A stretch of DNA of 64,000 nucleotides from Deltaproteobacteria bacterium (GTDB lineage Bacteria; Desulfobacterota_D; UBA1144; Nemesobacterales; UBA2774): NCBI GenBank assembly GCA_029262275.1, contig JAJCZS010000037.1:62001-126000 (forward strand), given 5' to 3'. The notes beneath the pieces are model-generated. The model was given only the letters and a program-made list of their open reading frames with translations. It ran no database searches and had not been told where the DNA came from. A program made the position numbers and the translations under genes. Shown here one piece after another: positions 42,505 to 53,234 of the stretch. How positions within the stretch are numbered: position 1 is the stretch's first letter; each line of letters begins with the position of its first letter.

Positions 42505-43047
42505 TTAATATTTATAGAACTCTTCATCTTCTGGCGGGATGTCGAAATCAAATGACCCATTGTTTTTGAGCGCCTTGTAATCTTCTGCTGATAAATCAGG
42601 AAGCTGTTTTAGGAACGCAACTATGGACCATATTTCCTGATCACTATGAGACAGACCAAATGCGGGCATTCCTGTCATTTTTATTCCGTTTTTTGTTACC
42701 CAAAATAGTTCTACAGCGCTAAGCTCTTCTGACTCTTCTGCAAGATCAGGAGGGCTTGGGTTAAAACCCTCAGCCGCTTCACTTCCAGGTCCACCGTGGC
42801 AGCCAACACACATATTGTCATAAAGGTCGAATCCTGACTTTATTAATGAATCATCATTTAATTTGGCTCTTTCTATATTCTCTGAGTGTTTTTTTATTGA
42901 ATATTTTTTTGTAGTGTTAAATACCCATTCAGCTAATAGTGAATGAGGTTCAGTTGCAGCAATGTTATAGGTTCCAGAATAGATAAATACAAACAACCCT
43001 GCAATTAATAATATCAAAACTAATATAACAGTTTTAATAAATCCCAT
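42505..43047 (-). CDS. Membrane-anchored mono-heme cytochrome c
   Basis: The 180-residue protein has an N-terminal transmembrane anchor (residues 5-24) and one heme site, CVGCHGGPG (Cys80, Cys83, His84). The MPAFG segment near residue 128 supplies the probable axial Met. Around it, KSGFDLYDNMC and SIVAFLKQLPDLS mark a class I cytochrome domain. It is encoded between the multicopper oxidase-barrel gene and ccmG/ccmH on the same strand, so it may exchange electrons with the copper oxidase or with a terminal oxidase. Confidence 0.88.
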   Translation of the reverse strand: MGFIKTVILVLILLIAGLFVFIYSGTYNIAATEPHSLLAEWVFNTTKKYSIKKHSENIERAKLNDDSLIKSGFDLYDNMCVGCHGGPGSEAAEGFNPSPPDLAEESEELSAVELFWVTKNGIKMTGMPAFGLSHSDQEIWSIVAFLKQLPDLSAEDYKALKNNGSFDFDIPPEDEEFYKY

Positions 43048-43183: not shown

Positions 43184-45271
43184 TTATAATCTTATTTCTA
43201 TACCTCCACCAGCTCCAAACTCTGAATAATACTGCCCTACGAGAGATAACCACTTATTAATCATCACTGCACCTCCAGCTTTCCACTCCCACTTGCTCTC
43301 GGTGTCGAACTGAAGCTCCCCAAAGGCACTCAGCCGCTCAGTAAGATCTATTTCTTTATCAAGAATTATTCTTAGATCAGCATCAGTATCTATCCAAACA
43401 GTACTATCTATGAGTAATGGCAGTAAGTACCTCACCCCAAATATTCCGCGAGTATCTTGCTCTTCATTAGTAATATCAATCCCTCCAAATGCTGTTATAA
43501 AACGGTTGATATATCTATTATATGTAAGCACGATTTCATAGTCTTCTTCTTCCCATCCTGCTTCCCATGTAGCACTGATTGTGTTTCTTGTATTTGATAT
43601 CGCAGCTGTTCCTTCAGTCATCTGACTTAGTATTCTCACATCCGCCCAGTAGTAGAGAGGGTCCTTGTATAGATTGGGCCTCATCTCTTTAATGTCCGGA
43701 TCAATGTCTGAGCCCACGTAACTTACAATTCGTGACATGCCTGCCTTCATATGATAGAGAACATGGCAATGGAAAAACCAGTCTTTTTCCTCATTTGCTT
43801 CAAACTCAATTACTACAGTTCCAAGCGGGGGGACATCAACTGTGTGCTTTAGGGGCGAGTATTCTCCTTGTTCATTTAATACCCTGAAAAAATGACCGTG
43901 GAGATGCATCGGGTGGTGCATCATAGTTGTATTATTAAGTATAAATCTTACATTCTCGCCCTTACGAATTAGTATTTTGTCATCTTCATTGATTGTCATT
44001 CCATTTATCGACCATACGTACCTCTCCATATCGCCCGTTAGATTAAGTACTACTTCTCTAGTCTGGTTTTCTGATGGCAAAGTGGTTTCCTCCAGTGAGC
44101 GCAAGTTGTCATATGGAGGAAGCGGTCTTGGATTCTTAGGCATGTTCATCATATCAGACATTTCCATTTGATCATGTCCCATATTTTCATGCATTGTATG
44201 GTCCATTTCCATCTCTGAGTGACCCATCATCTGAGAATGATCCATCTTATATAAATTTGGTCTGGGAATATTCGGGGCTAATACTTGTGCACCTTCTCCA
44301 ATAAATAGTGACGCATGACCTGAGCCGTCCTGTGCTGTAGCACGGAATTCATATGAACCGCCATCGGGAACTGTTAAGATCACATCATATGTTTCGGCTA
44401 TAGCCATTAGAATTCTATCGGTATCAAAAGGCTCTACATCAACACCATCTGCAGCGATTACTTTCATCTCACCACCAGCATAGTTGAGATAAAAATAGCT
44501 AGATCCACCAGCGTTAATTATTCTCAGTCTCACATCCTCTCCAGGCTCTGTTTTTAGGGTGGACTGGGGCTTTCCATTAATTAAGAAAGCATCGTATGCG
44601 ACGTCTGATATATCCATTGGAGGCATTCTTCGAATTGAGCGCTTTAGATTATCCATTACAGCATGATTTTTGATAACTCCAAGCACAGTCTGCTTACCGC
44701 CTTTCTTAAAAGATTGATATTCGCTTCCACGTTTTAAATCTCTTAAGACTTCATTCGGGTTTTGATCAGTCCAGTCGGATAGAACAACAACATGCTCAAC
44801 TTCGGGTAGTTCTATATCTGTCCTTTGTTCTTTGGGCTCAATCACAATTGATCCATATACTCCCAACTGTTCCTGAAGACCTGTATGAGAGTGGTACCAA
44901 TATGTGCCGCTGTGTTTAATTGGGAATTCATACGTATAGGTTGTTCCTGGTTTTATTGGCGGTGTAGTTAGATAAGGCACGCCGTCTTCTCTGTTGGGTA
45001 GTAACAATCCGTGCCAGTGAATTGAGGTATTCATATCCATATTGTTCTCAACATTTATTCTTGCGGTATCACCTTCTTTGAAATAAAGAGTAGGTCCTGG
45101 AATTGAGTCATTAATGGACATTGCACTCTTCTCTTTACCAGAATAGTTCACTGTCTTGTGATCTATCTCCAAATTGTATTCTCTAACTTCAGCACTAGCT
45201 TTGTTATAAGAAAAAAGTGCACAAGCTATAATTAATAGTATTAAAAAAATGTTTTCAGTTCTAAAATTCAT
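43184..45271 (-). CDS. CopA-like multicopper oxidase with Met/His-rich loop and C-terminal barrel-like domain
   Basis: This exported oxidase of 695 residues has a signal peptide (to about residue 27). Three cupredoxin domains contain the copper motifs IHWHG (His85, His87), YWYHSHTG (His127, His129), HPMHLHGHFF (near 453-462) and HCHVLYHMKAGM (near 501-512). A Met/His-rich insert spans about 343-379 (MDHSQMMGHSEMEMDHT). Residues 533-695 are unusual: a tail of alternating strands (YYWADVRIL, EIVLTYNRYINRF, RGIFGVRYLLPL) resembling the CopB outer-membrane barrel, ending GGGIEIRL. ATG 45271 has GGAG seven bases upstream; ATG 45292 is an alternative. A role in Cu(I) oxidation or tolerance is inferred. 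Confidence 0.88.
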   Translation of the reverse strand: MNFRTENIFLILLIIACALFSYNKASAEVREYNLEIDHKTVNYSGKEKSAMSINDSIPGPTLYFKEGDTARINVENNMDMNTSIHWHGLLLPNREDGVPYLTTPPIKPGTTYTYEFPIKHSGTYWYHSHTGLQEQLGVYGSIVIEPKEQRTDIELPEVEHVVVLSDWTDQNPNEVLRDLKRGSEYQSFKKGGKQTVLGVIKNHAVMDNLKRSIRRMPPMDISDVAYDAFLINGKPQSTLKTEPGEDVRLRIINAGGSSYFYLNYAGGEMKVIAADGVDVEPFDTDRILMAIAETYDVILTVPDGGSYEFRATAQDGSGHASLFIGEGAQVLAPNIPRPNLYKMDHSQMMGHSEMEMDHTMHENMGHDQMEMSDMMNMPKNPRPLPPYDNLRSLEETTLPSENQTREVVLNLTGDMERYVWSINGMTINEDDKILIRKGENVRFILNNTTMMHHPMHLHGHFFRVLNEQGEYSPLKHTVDVPPLGTVVIEFEANEEKDWFFHCHVLYHMKAGMSRIVSYVGSDIDPDIKEMRPNLYKDPLYYWADVRILSQMTEGTAAISNTRNTISATWEAGWEEEDYEIVLTYNRYINRFITAFGGIDITNEEQDTRGIFGVRYLLPLLIDSTVWIDTDADLRIILDKEIDLTERLSAFGELQFDTESKWEWKAGGAVMINKWLSLVGQYYSEFGAGGGIEIRL

Positions 45272-45363
45272 GTCCTTTCTCCATTTATTCATATCCTTTT
45301 AAATCAGAAAATTAAAGTTTCCCATAAACTTTTAAAGAGTTTTGGGTAAGGATGTAGTGGAGA

Positions 45364-45744
45364 TCAGATTAAAAAAGTGGAATGTAATACTTGTATATTG
45401 GGTGGACCGTGTTCTCTTTGAGAACGGTTATTAATCTTATTGTCTTGTGTAGTCAAAATATTTTGAACCCAAGATCTTGTTACATTTGTATAGATAACTT
45501 TTACATATTGATCAGACGAGCTATTTGTAAGATATTCATTGCAACAGGAACTGTTGAAATCTGCCTGTTGGTTAAAGTCTTGCATAATATCCAATGTTTC
45601 AGTCACAGGAGTCTCATGCTTATCCATCTTATGACAGCTCTCCGTAGCTTCATTGGTAGATGCTGCAAATGTAATAGGGCTATTACACAGCCCCCCTACA
45701 CAGACAACAACATTTAAAATTAGAAATAGGTGAAATATTCTCAT
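45364..45744 (-). CDS. Small periplasmic Cys/His protein upstream of the copper oxidase
   Basis: The 126-residue exported protein has a signal peptide at residues 1-28 (ending ITFAA) and a SCHKMDKHE segment. A SSCCNEY segment follows in the mature half, giving three cysteines and two histidines within about 40 residues. The rest is polar with an aromatic strand (QYVKVIYTNVTRSWV). I do not recognise a family. It lies 92 bases before the multicopper oxidase on the same strand, and small Cys/His proteins often precede CopA-type genes, so a copper-binding or sensing role is plausible. Confidence 0.65.
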   Translation of the reverse strand: MRIFHLFLILNVVVCVGGLCNSPITFAASTNEATESCHKMDKHETPVTETLDIMQDFNQQADFNSSCCNEYLTNSSSDQYVKVIYTNVTRSWVQNILTTQDNKINNRSQREHGPPNIQVLHSTFLI

Positions 45745-51135: not shown

Positions 51136-52632
51136 TTAGCTTGGAGACTTATAATGAATTTCTCTCGCCATACCAGTTTCTAAATGATAGAGATTGTGGC
51201 AATGGAAAAACCACCTGCCAGGATTGTCTGTGTAGAATTCAAAAGATACTTTTTTGAATGGAGGAACACTTATTGTATCTAGTAGAGGCGCATGGTCATA
51301 GCCGGATTTTAATCCTAATACACGGAAGAAATGACCGTGAAGGTGCATTGGATGATACATAGGAGTAGTGTTAGTCATGTTGACTACAACACGTTCCCCA
51401 GATTGTACTATCAAAGGATCTGCATTTGGATATATCTGATTGCCCATCTCCCAAATGTACTTAGCCATGTTTCCATCTAGACTTAAATCAAAAGTTTTTA
51501 CTGGACTATCAGGTGGCGTGCTGGGCTCAATAGAAACAAGGTCATCATATACAAACCCCCTTCCTTTTACTTTAGGTATTTTCTTAGATACCTGCCCCTT
51601 AGAGTCTGGTGTTCTTAGTATTCCTATTGCTTGAACTGATCCATCTTGGGCTACACCTCTTATAGCAAATGTCCCAGATTCTTTTACTCGTAGAACTAAA
51701 TCATAACGTTCTGCTACGCCCATTAATATGTTGTCCACCTCAACAGGTTTAACCCTTTGCCCGCTAGCCGTATGAGTAACCGTTAGTTTATGGTCGTCTA
51801 CCATAAAGTAGAAATAAGATGATGCGCAGCTATTTATTACTCTTAGCCTTACAAGGTCACCAGGTTTTGCAATAAATTCCATAGGATTGTTAATTCCTTG
51901 GCCGTTTAATAGAAAACTTGGATAATCAACATCAGCTAAATCAGGGGTCGTCTCTTTTACATTTTTATTCTGCTCTGCCTGTTTCCTCAAATTAGGGACT
52001 ATTTTATAAGGATCGGTATGCAGCCAGTCATTTATAGTAATGACATATTCTTGATCATATGACATATCTTCTCTTTTGGGTTCAACAATGATTGGACCAA
52101 ACACGCCTTGCTGCTCTTGCAGATTTACGTGAGAGTGATACCAGTAGGTGCCTCTTTGTCGAATAATATATTGATATACATATTGCTCATAAGGTGCTAT
52201 AGGGCGTTGAGTAACTTCAGGCACCCCGTCCATATTACTAGGTAAAATCATGCCGTGGCTGTGAATTGTAAGGTTTTGATCTGCAATCTTGTTTGTTGTC
52301 ACAATACGCAGAAGATCTCCTTCTCTAACCCTTATCTCAGGGCCAGGTATTTGTCCATTTACTGTAAGTGCCTTGACCGTGGTTCCATCAGGTGTCACCT
52401 CTTGTTCAGCCACTTCAAGTTGATATTCTTTATACGGTATTTCAACCGGTATAGAACCAGTTCCGGGTAGAGCTGGGAGTGTATTTTCGGCTTGGACAAT
52501 CTTAGGCAATCCGAGCAAACTTACACCAGCAGCAGCGCCTAAACCCAACCCGCTAAGCTCCAAAAAATTTCTACGTGATAAGGAATTATTACTTTTCAAC
52601 TTATCTTTTTTCTGATCTGATTTGCTTTTCAT
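51136..52632 (-). CDS. Tat-exported multicopper oxidase (CopA/CumA-like)
   Basis: The 498-residue three-domain multicopper oxidase has a Tat signal (SRRNFLELSGLGLGAAAG, residues 18-35). All copper sites are present: IHSHG, YWYHSHVNLQEQQG, HPMHLHGHFFRVL and the type 1 motif HCHNLYHLETGM. It lacks the Met/His-rich insert and the C-terminal barrel of the other oxidase in the window but shares the same core. AGGAGGG precedes the ATG. Copper tolerance or Mn/Cu oxidation is possible. A 7-base inverted repeat lies 43-60 bases upstream of its start. Confidence 0.92.
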   Translation of the reverse strand: MKSKSDQKKDKLKSNNSLSRRNFLELSGLGLGAAAGVSLLGLPKIVQAENTLPALPGTGSIPVEIPYKEYQLEVAEQEVTPDGTTVKALTVNGQIPGPEIRVREGDLLRIVTTNKIADQNLTIHSHGMILPSNMDGVPEVTQRPIAPYEQYVYQYIIRQRGTYWYHSHVNLQEQQGVFGPIIVEPKREDMSYDQEYVITINDWLHTDPYKIVPNLRKQAEQNKNVKETTPDLADVDYPSFLLNGQGINNPMEFIAKPGDLVRLRVINSCASSYFYFMVDDHKLTVTHTASGQRVKPVEVDNILMGVAERYDLVLRVKESGTFAIRGVAQDGSVQAIGILRTPDSKGQVSKKIPKVKGRGFVYDDLVSIEPSTPPDSPVKTFDLSLDGNMAKYIWEMGNQIYPNADPLIVQSGERVVVNMTNTTPMYHPMHLHGHFFRVLGLKSGYDHAPLLDTISVPPFKKVSFEFYTDNPGRWFFHCHNLYHLETGMAREIHYKSPS

Positions 52633-52814: not shown

Positions 52815-53234
52815 TTAATCGAATACTATTCCTAAGTTAACCGAAAAAGGTACATAGGGATAAACTGGATAGGGTCTTGGATAGTAAGCGTAGGGTCTGT
52901 AGTATGGCCTATAGTAAGGTCTGTAGTATCCACCATAAGCATAGCCTCTGTTTTTATAATAATGCCGGCCATGTTTGTGACCGTGTTTGTATCCATGACC
53001 TCGGTTATAACCATAGCCTTTATTCTTGTAGCCATGACCACCGTAGTGTTTCTTGTGTCCACTATATTTATAGCCATGACCTTTACTCTGACCTTTGTAC
53101 CCATGACCTCCGTAGCTTTTACTGTGACCTTTGTACCCATGACCTCCGCCTTGGTATTTCTTCGCAAAGCTACTTATAGGCGCTGCCAGTACAAAGGCTA
53201 GTATTACAAAAGCTGGAATAATTAATTTCTTCAT
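52815..53234 (-). CDS. Secreted Gly/His/Tyr/Lys-rich repeat protein
   Basis: The 139-residue protein has a signal peptide (1-24, ending SSFAK). The low-complexity region at 28-95 is built on HGYKG or GGHGYK units with Ser-Lys spacers. A tyrosine/proline stretch follows (YYRPYYRPYYRPYAYYPRPYP), and the end is hydrophobic, NLGIVFD. The His content suggests divalent-metal binding; Gly/Tyr repeats also occur in surface or matrix proteins. It has its own terminator and lies between the Tat oxidase and a cation transporter. The reading frame is supported by the signal peptide and the in-frame repeat structure. Confidence 0.75.
   Translation of the reverse strand: MKKLIIPAFVILAFVLAAPISSFAKKYQGGGHGYKGHSKSYGGHGYKGQSKGHGYKYSGHKKHYGGHGYKNKGYGYNRGHGYKHGHKHGRHYYKNRGYAYGGYYRPYYRPYYRPYAYYPRPYPVYPYVPFSVNLGIVFD
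53082..53148 (-). repeat. Tandem 36-base coding repeats
   Basis: Two adjacent copies starting at 53082 and 53118 share the word GACCTTTGTACCCATGACC and neighbouring bases at 36-base spacing, coding for 12-residue units around GGHGYKG. The near-identity in DNA indicates recent duplication or slippage. Confidence 0.7.

Follow-up and report, generated by a model that had tools for sequence, protein, structure and literature searches.

A multicopper oxidase gene of Dadabacteria that continues into a predicted CopB/PcoB-like barrel

In the copper-handling systems closest to the gene studied here, PcoA (CopA) oxidises Cu(I) in the periplasm, and the PcoB barrel passes Cu(II) in proteoliposomes (PMC9210255). 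What CopB/PcoB does and how it relates to the oxidase is not settled, with copper export, copper import and an electron conduit all having been proposed. A natural fusion bears directly on this question: by tying oxidase and barrel together at a one-to-one ratio and to a common face of the outer membrane, it strongly hints at joint action. Such proteins have been described: fused PcoA-PcoB was reported in 2012 in five Legionella species (PMC3548706), and the oxidase G2EDV6 of Bizionia argentinensis was found to end in a porin-like region that bears some resemblance to E. coli PcoB (PMC11213822, 2024). The preliminary description of our locus rightly takes CopA and CopB to be separate proteins as a rule, yet these fusions had already been published. 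The oxidase-barrel fusion is a known architecture, of which the Dadabacteria gene is a further example. Annotation pipelines miss the barrel family of its tail, which falls below the CopB model, and label the product only as 'multicopper oxidase domain-containing protein'.

The gene lies on the minus strand of the window, the 64,000-nucleotide stretch of DNA that was analysed. Its ORF starts with an ATG at 45271 and stops at 43184, the product ending in GGGIEIRL; a second in-frame ATG upstream, at 45292, would lengthen the product by 7 aa. The gene and its parts are as follows.

43184..45271 (-): fused multicopper oxidase / CopB-like barrel gene, 695 aa, kept at full length in relatives (57-81% identity)
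45191..45271 (-): N-terminal signal peptide, residues 1-27, of Sec type by inspection, with no twin-arginine motif
43715..45190 (-): three-domain multicopper oxidase, residues 28-519 (PF07732, PF00394, PF07731; TIGR01480)
45008..45019 (-): copper motif HWHG, residues 85-88, invariant in aligned homologues
44885..44893 (-): copper motif HSH, residues 127-129, from the sequence and homologue alignments
44135..44245 (-): Met/His-rich loop between domains 2 and 3, residues 343-379
43892..43915 (-): copper motif HPMHLHGH, residues 453-460, from the sequence and homologue alignments
43736..43771 (-): copper motif HCHVLYHMKAGM, residues 501-512, from the sequence and homologue alignments
43655..43714 (-): linker with a short helix, residues 520-539, from the AlphaFold tail model (tail helix 12-21)
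43187..43654 (-): CopB/PcoB-like 12-strand barrel, residues 540-695, as predicted from hhalign, strand count and the top Foldseek match 7pge

The oxidase half had been described as a complete three-domain copper oxidase, and the domain matches bear this out. All three Pfam Cu-oxidase domains were detected (E 1e-46, 7e-34 and 1e-23), and the protein shows the CopA/PcoA hallmark of three cupredoxin domains with copper motifs at residues 85, 127, 453 and 501, all of them complete. Among NCBIfam models, copper_res_A (TIGR01480) was by far the best match (E 1.6e-126), with a score of 423 bits that does not reach the curated cut-off of 478.95 bits; the 695-aa protein is accordingly treated as a relative of copper_res_A and not as a strict member. 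The Met/His-rich insert noted earlier at about residues 343-379 is equally real, with Met or His at 17 of its 37 residues as compared to 37 of 658 in the remainder of the protein. A Met-rich loop occupies the same place in an unfused Dadabacteria CopA (genome G009, locus L011) and is an ordinary CopA/PcoA feature. In plasmid-borne homologues from Bacteroidota (L031-L034), the Met/His-rich loop at this place is expanded to as much as a few hundred residues and contains repeats of the MDHSxM type. The window contains a second multicopper oxidase gene, 6 kb from the fused one (51136-52632 (-)), encoding an unfused 498-aa protein with a twin-arginine signal and without a tail, ~35% identical to the fused oxidase. 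Another gene (52815-53234 (-)) encodes a 139-residue secreted protein of His/Gly/Tyr/Lys repeats that has no Pfam match and possibly binds metal.

Fused homologues with an intact N-terminus likewise lack a Tat motif, whereas most unfused CopA proteins have one. A Sec instead of a Tat signal would fit a chain that arrives unfolded at the outer-membrane insertion machinery. A strict rule, by which unfused oxidases use Tat and fused ones Sec, is weakened by an unfused Acinetobacter CopA with a Sec-like start, and a distant short oxidase of Ilyobacter also begins like a Sec signal.

The tail (approximately residues 520-695) shows 50-86% identity across eight homologues, which rules out a read-through or frameshift product; the full-length frame recurs in many genomes and is intact in relatives within the genus, within the family and in a further family of the order. 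A Pfam scan of the window's own tail matched no family, PF05275 CopB included, and none of nine members scanned reached the PF05275 cut-off with its tail. The weak matches among these nine were all to outer-membrane barrel families, namely DUF481 (E 0.0012), CopB (best E 0.014) and OMP_b-brl (E 0.21). Single-sequence NCBIfam scans of the tail returned nothing usable, and the tail profile had zero matches when searched against PDB sequences. Comparison of profiles using hhalign aligned the fused tails with five CopB/PcoB proteins over 165 columns (E 8e-8), and a repeat restricted to residues 520-695, with four tails added, gave E 2.6e-7. Overall, the comparisons with the CopB/PcoB profile yielded E 6e-8 to 3e-7 and scores of 53-58. 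Among the controls, column shuffling produced maximal scores of 20.7 in 100 shuffles and 21.3 in 200, the reversed profile scored 13.1 and an unrelated barrel in the window 14.7. At the level of profiles, the tail thus shows homology to CopB/PcoB in the HMM comparison with this family that the preliminary description had proposed.

Structure prediction points the same way. The crystal structure of PcoB has 12 strands, with both termini in the periplasm (PMC9210255). An AlphaFold model of the tail, calculated from an alignment of only 8-9 sequences, comprises one helix and 12 strands at low confidence (pLDDT 57); a full-length model, in which no barrel formed (pLDDT 46), was not used. When the tail model was compared with 350,542 PDB chains by Foldseek, the best match was PcoB (7pge), with an E-value of only 1e-3 and a probability of 1.00, followed by a runner-up at E 1.8e-2. 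Coming from a low-confidence model, the fold match to PcoB is support and not proof.

A search for the same domain order in other genomes, as suggested in the preliminary description, was successful: the fusion is common to Dadabacteria, Nitrospirota, Bacteroidota and Fusobacteriota. Within the phylum, the tail profile has matches in 8 of 58 genomes; in the phylum of the Nitrospirota MAG, it has matches in 6 of the 148 genomes sampled. Among these matches no free-standing tail gene was seen, with two exceptions, one at a contig end (G012) and the other a remnant (G003). In the remnant (L012:137-481 (-)), the barrel tail runs directly up to the final 22 codons of the adjacent trehalose-phosphate synthase gene; the oxidase half is gone, as is the bulk of the synthase gene, through either a deletion or an assembly error. 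On plasmids from Bacteroidota and Ilyobacter, all tail matches (20/20) lie in annotated multicopper oxidases, and the seven examined in full are all fused. In an oxidase-domain tree, all fused proteins fall to the same side of one branch (support 88/90), an arrangement that would be compatible with a single origin without proving it. A separate CopB (PF05275) was found in G009, alone among the 58 genomes of the phylum, and there directly follows the unfused twin-arginine CopA; it was not found in the window's genome (G000) nor in the other fusion genomes checked. The fused gene encodes an oxidase followed by a PcoB-type barrel in one chain, in a genome without a separate CopB.

Two genes flank the fused gene.

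42505..43047 (-): membrane-anchored monohaem c-type cytochrome (PF13442), a probable functional neighbour
45364..45744 (-): small secreted Cys/His protein whose gene lies immediately upstream of the fused one; its conservation is confined to the genus, and the Pfam scan gave no match

Three genus members and L021 have the cytochrome c gene next to the fused gene, and in G009 it adjoins the separate CopA and CopB genes (L011:7692-8339 (+)).

According to these data, the 695-aa protein is very probably a single-chain PcoA-PcoB (CopA-CopB) copper-handling protein, in which the oxidase would sit at the inner mouth of a CopB-type barrel. The earlier reading of an oxidase fused to a CopB-like barrel withstood the refuting tests set for it in the preliminary description and is supported by the profile match, the strands, 7pge and the recurrence in four phyla. 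We nevertheless weighed whether the tail might be a barrel of another family, such as DUF481, that converged on CopB-like features. Two tails match DUF481 better than CopB in the single-sequence Pfam scan (0.0012 as against 0.014); with equal numbers of sequences, however, the tail profile scores 33.4 against DUF481 (three sequences) and 42.8 to 56.2 against any three CopB sequences, so that part of the signal stems from features common to barrels in general and CopB is the better match. Since the top PDB match is PcoB and the oxidase half is the known partner of CopB, an origin from another family appears improbable, and DUF481 was dropped as the barrel's family on its lower profile score. 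The barrel, from CopB or another small barrel, could also be a mere outer-membrane anchor for the oxidase that conducts no copper. Of the conserved pore acids of PcoB (D97-E207, E130-E223 and E187), some are kept: positions E187 and E207 align with D622 and E640 and are acidic in the Dadabacteria tails, E223 aligns with Q654, the key residue D97 cannot be aligned and the alignment of E130 is unsure. The partial loss of pore residues would suit an anchor, as would the missing CopB extracellular and last-hairpin loops, whereas the two acidic positions speak against it, and so does the absence of separate CopB where the fusion is present, which is expected if the barrel replaces CopB. On balance, we regard a pure anchor as rather unlikely.

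Two further readings draw on the cytochrome. The fused protein might oxidise Fe or Mn and, together with the cytochrome c, move electrons across the envelope; in favour are the conservation of the c-type cytochrome gene next to the oxidase and the hypothesis, put forward without experiment, that PcoAB forms a porin-oxidase electron conduit in iron oxidisers (PMC5566968). The Met/His-rich copper loop and the best family match to copper resistance oxidases nevertheless argue for copper, and in G009 the cytochrome accompanies an ordinary CopA-CopB pair downstream of a CusA-like pump gene (L011); an Fe or Mn oxidase seems highly improbable. It is also conceivable, and in our view quite doubtful, that the fusion represents a distinct, ancient outer-membrane oxidase-porin, in which the oxidase would directly meet the copper that comes in through the barrel, electrons might be exchanged with the cytochrome c and the whole would have spread between phyla as a unit.

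For the single-chain PcoA-PcoB protein, we envisage that the signal peptide would direct the fused chain into the periplasm, where the three-domain oxidase would fold and acquire Cu(I), aided by the Met/His-rich loop, and convert it to the less toxic Cu(II) using oxygen. The C-terminal 12-strand barrel would enter the outer membrane with both of its ends facing the periplasm and so place the oxidase at its inner mouth. Outer-membrane insertion, passage of copper through the barrel and Cu(I) as the substrate are what we infer. Most likely, the fused protein does the jobs of both PcoA and PcoB in one chain and would stand in for the two-gene copA-copB module of its relative.

New here are the occurrence of the fusion in Dadabacteria, Nitrospirota and Fusobacteriota, the evidence from profiles and fold for the tail as a relative of CopB, and the comparison with a two-gene system within one family. 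That system, CopA-CopB of G009 (L011), comes from the same family of organisms and shares the Met-rich loop in the oxidase and the cytochrome c neighbour; it differs in having separate genes, a Tat signal and a CopB that PF05275 matches at E 1e-85. E. coli PcoA and PcoB, like Pseudomonas CopA and CopB, comprise a homologous oxidase (36% identity between the window's oxidase and E. coli PcoA over 563 residues) and, by the profile match, a homologous barrel, but are encoded by two genes, with a twin-arginine signal in PcoA and an N-terminal extension and longer loops in PcoB. Bizionia G2EDV6 resembles our protein in its signal peptide, three Cu-oxidase domains and C-terminal PcoB-like porin region, yet stems from Bacteroidota and is longer, its porin-like region lying at 611-809. 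The Legionella fusion likewise joins a PcoA oxidase and a PcoB barrel in one gene but is gammaproteobacterial; compared through its published description, it matches the Dadabacteria gene in architecture.
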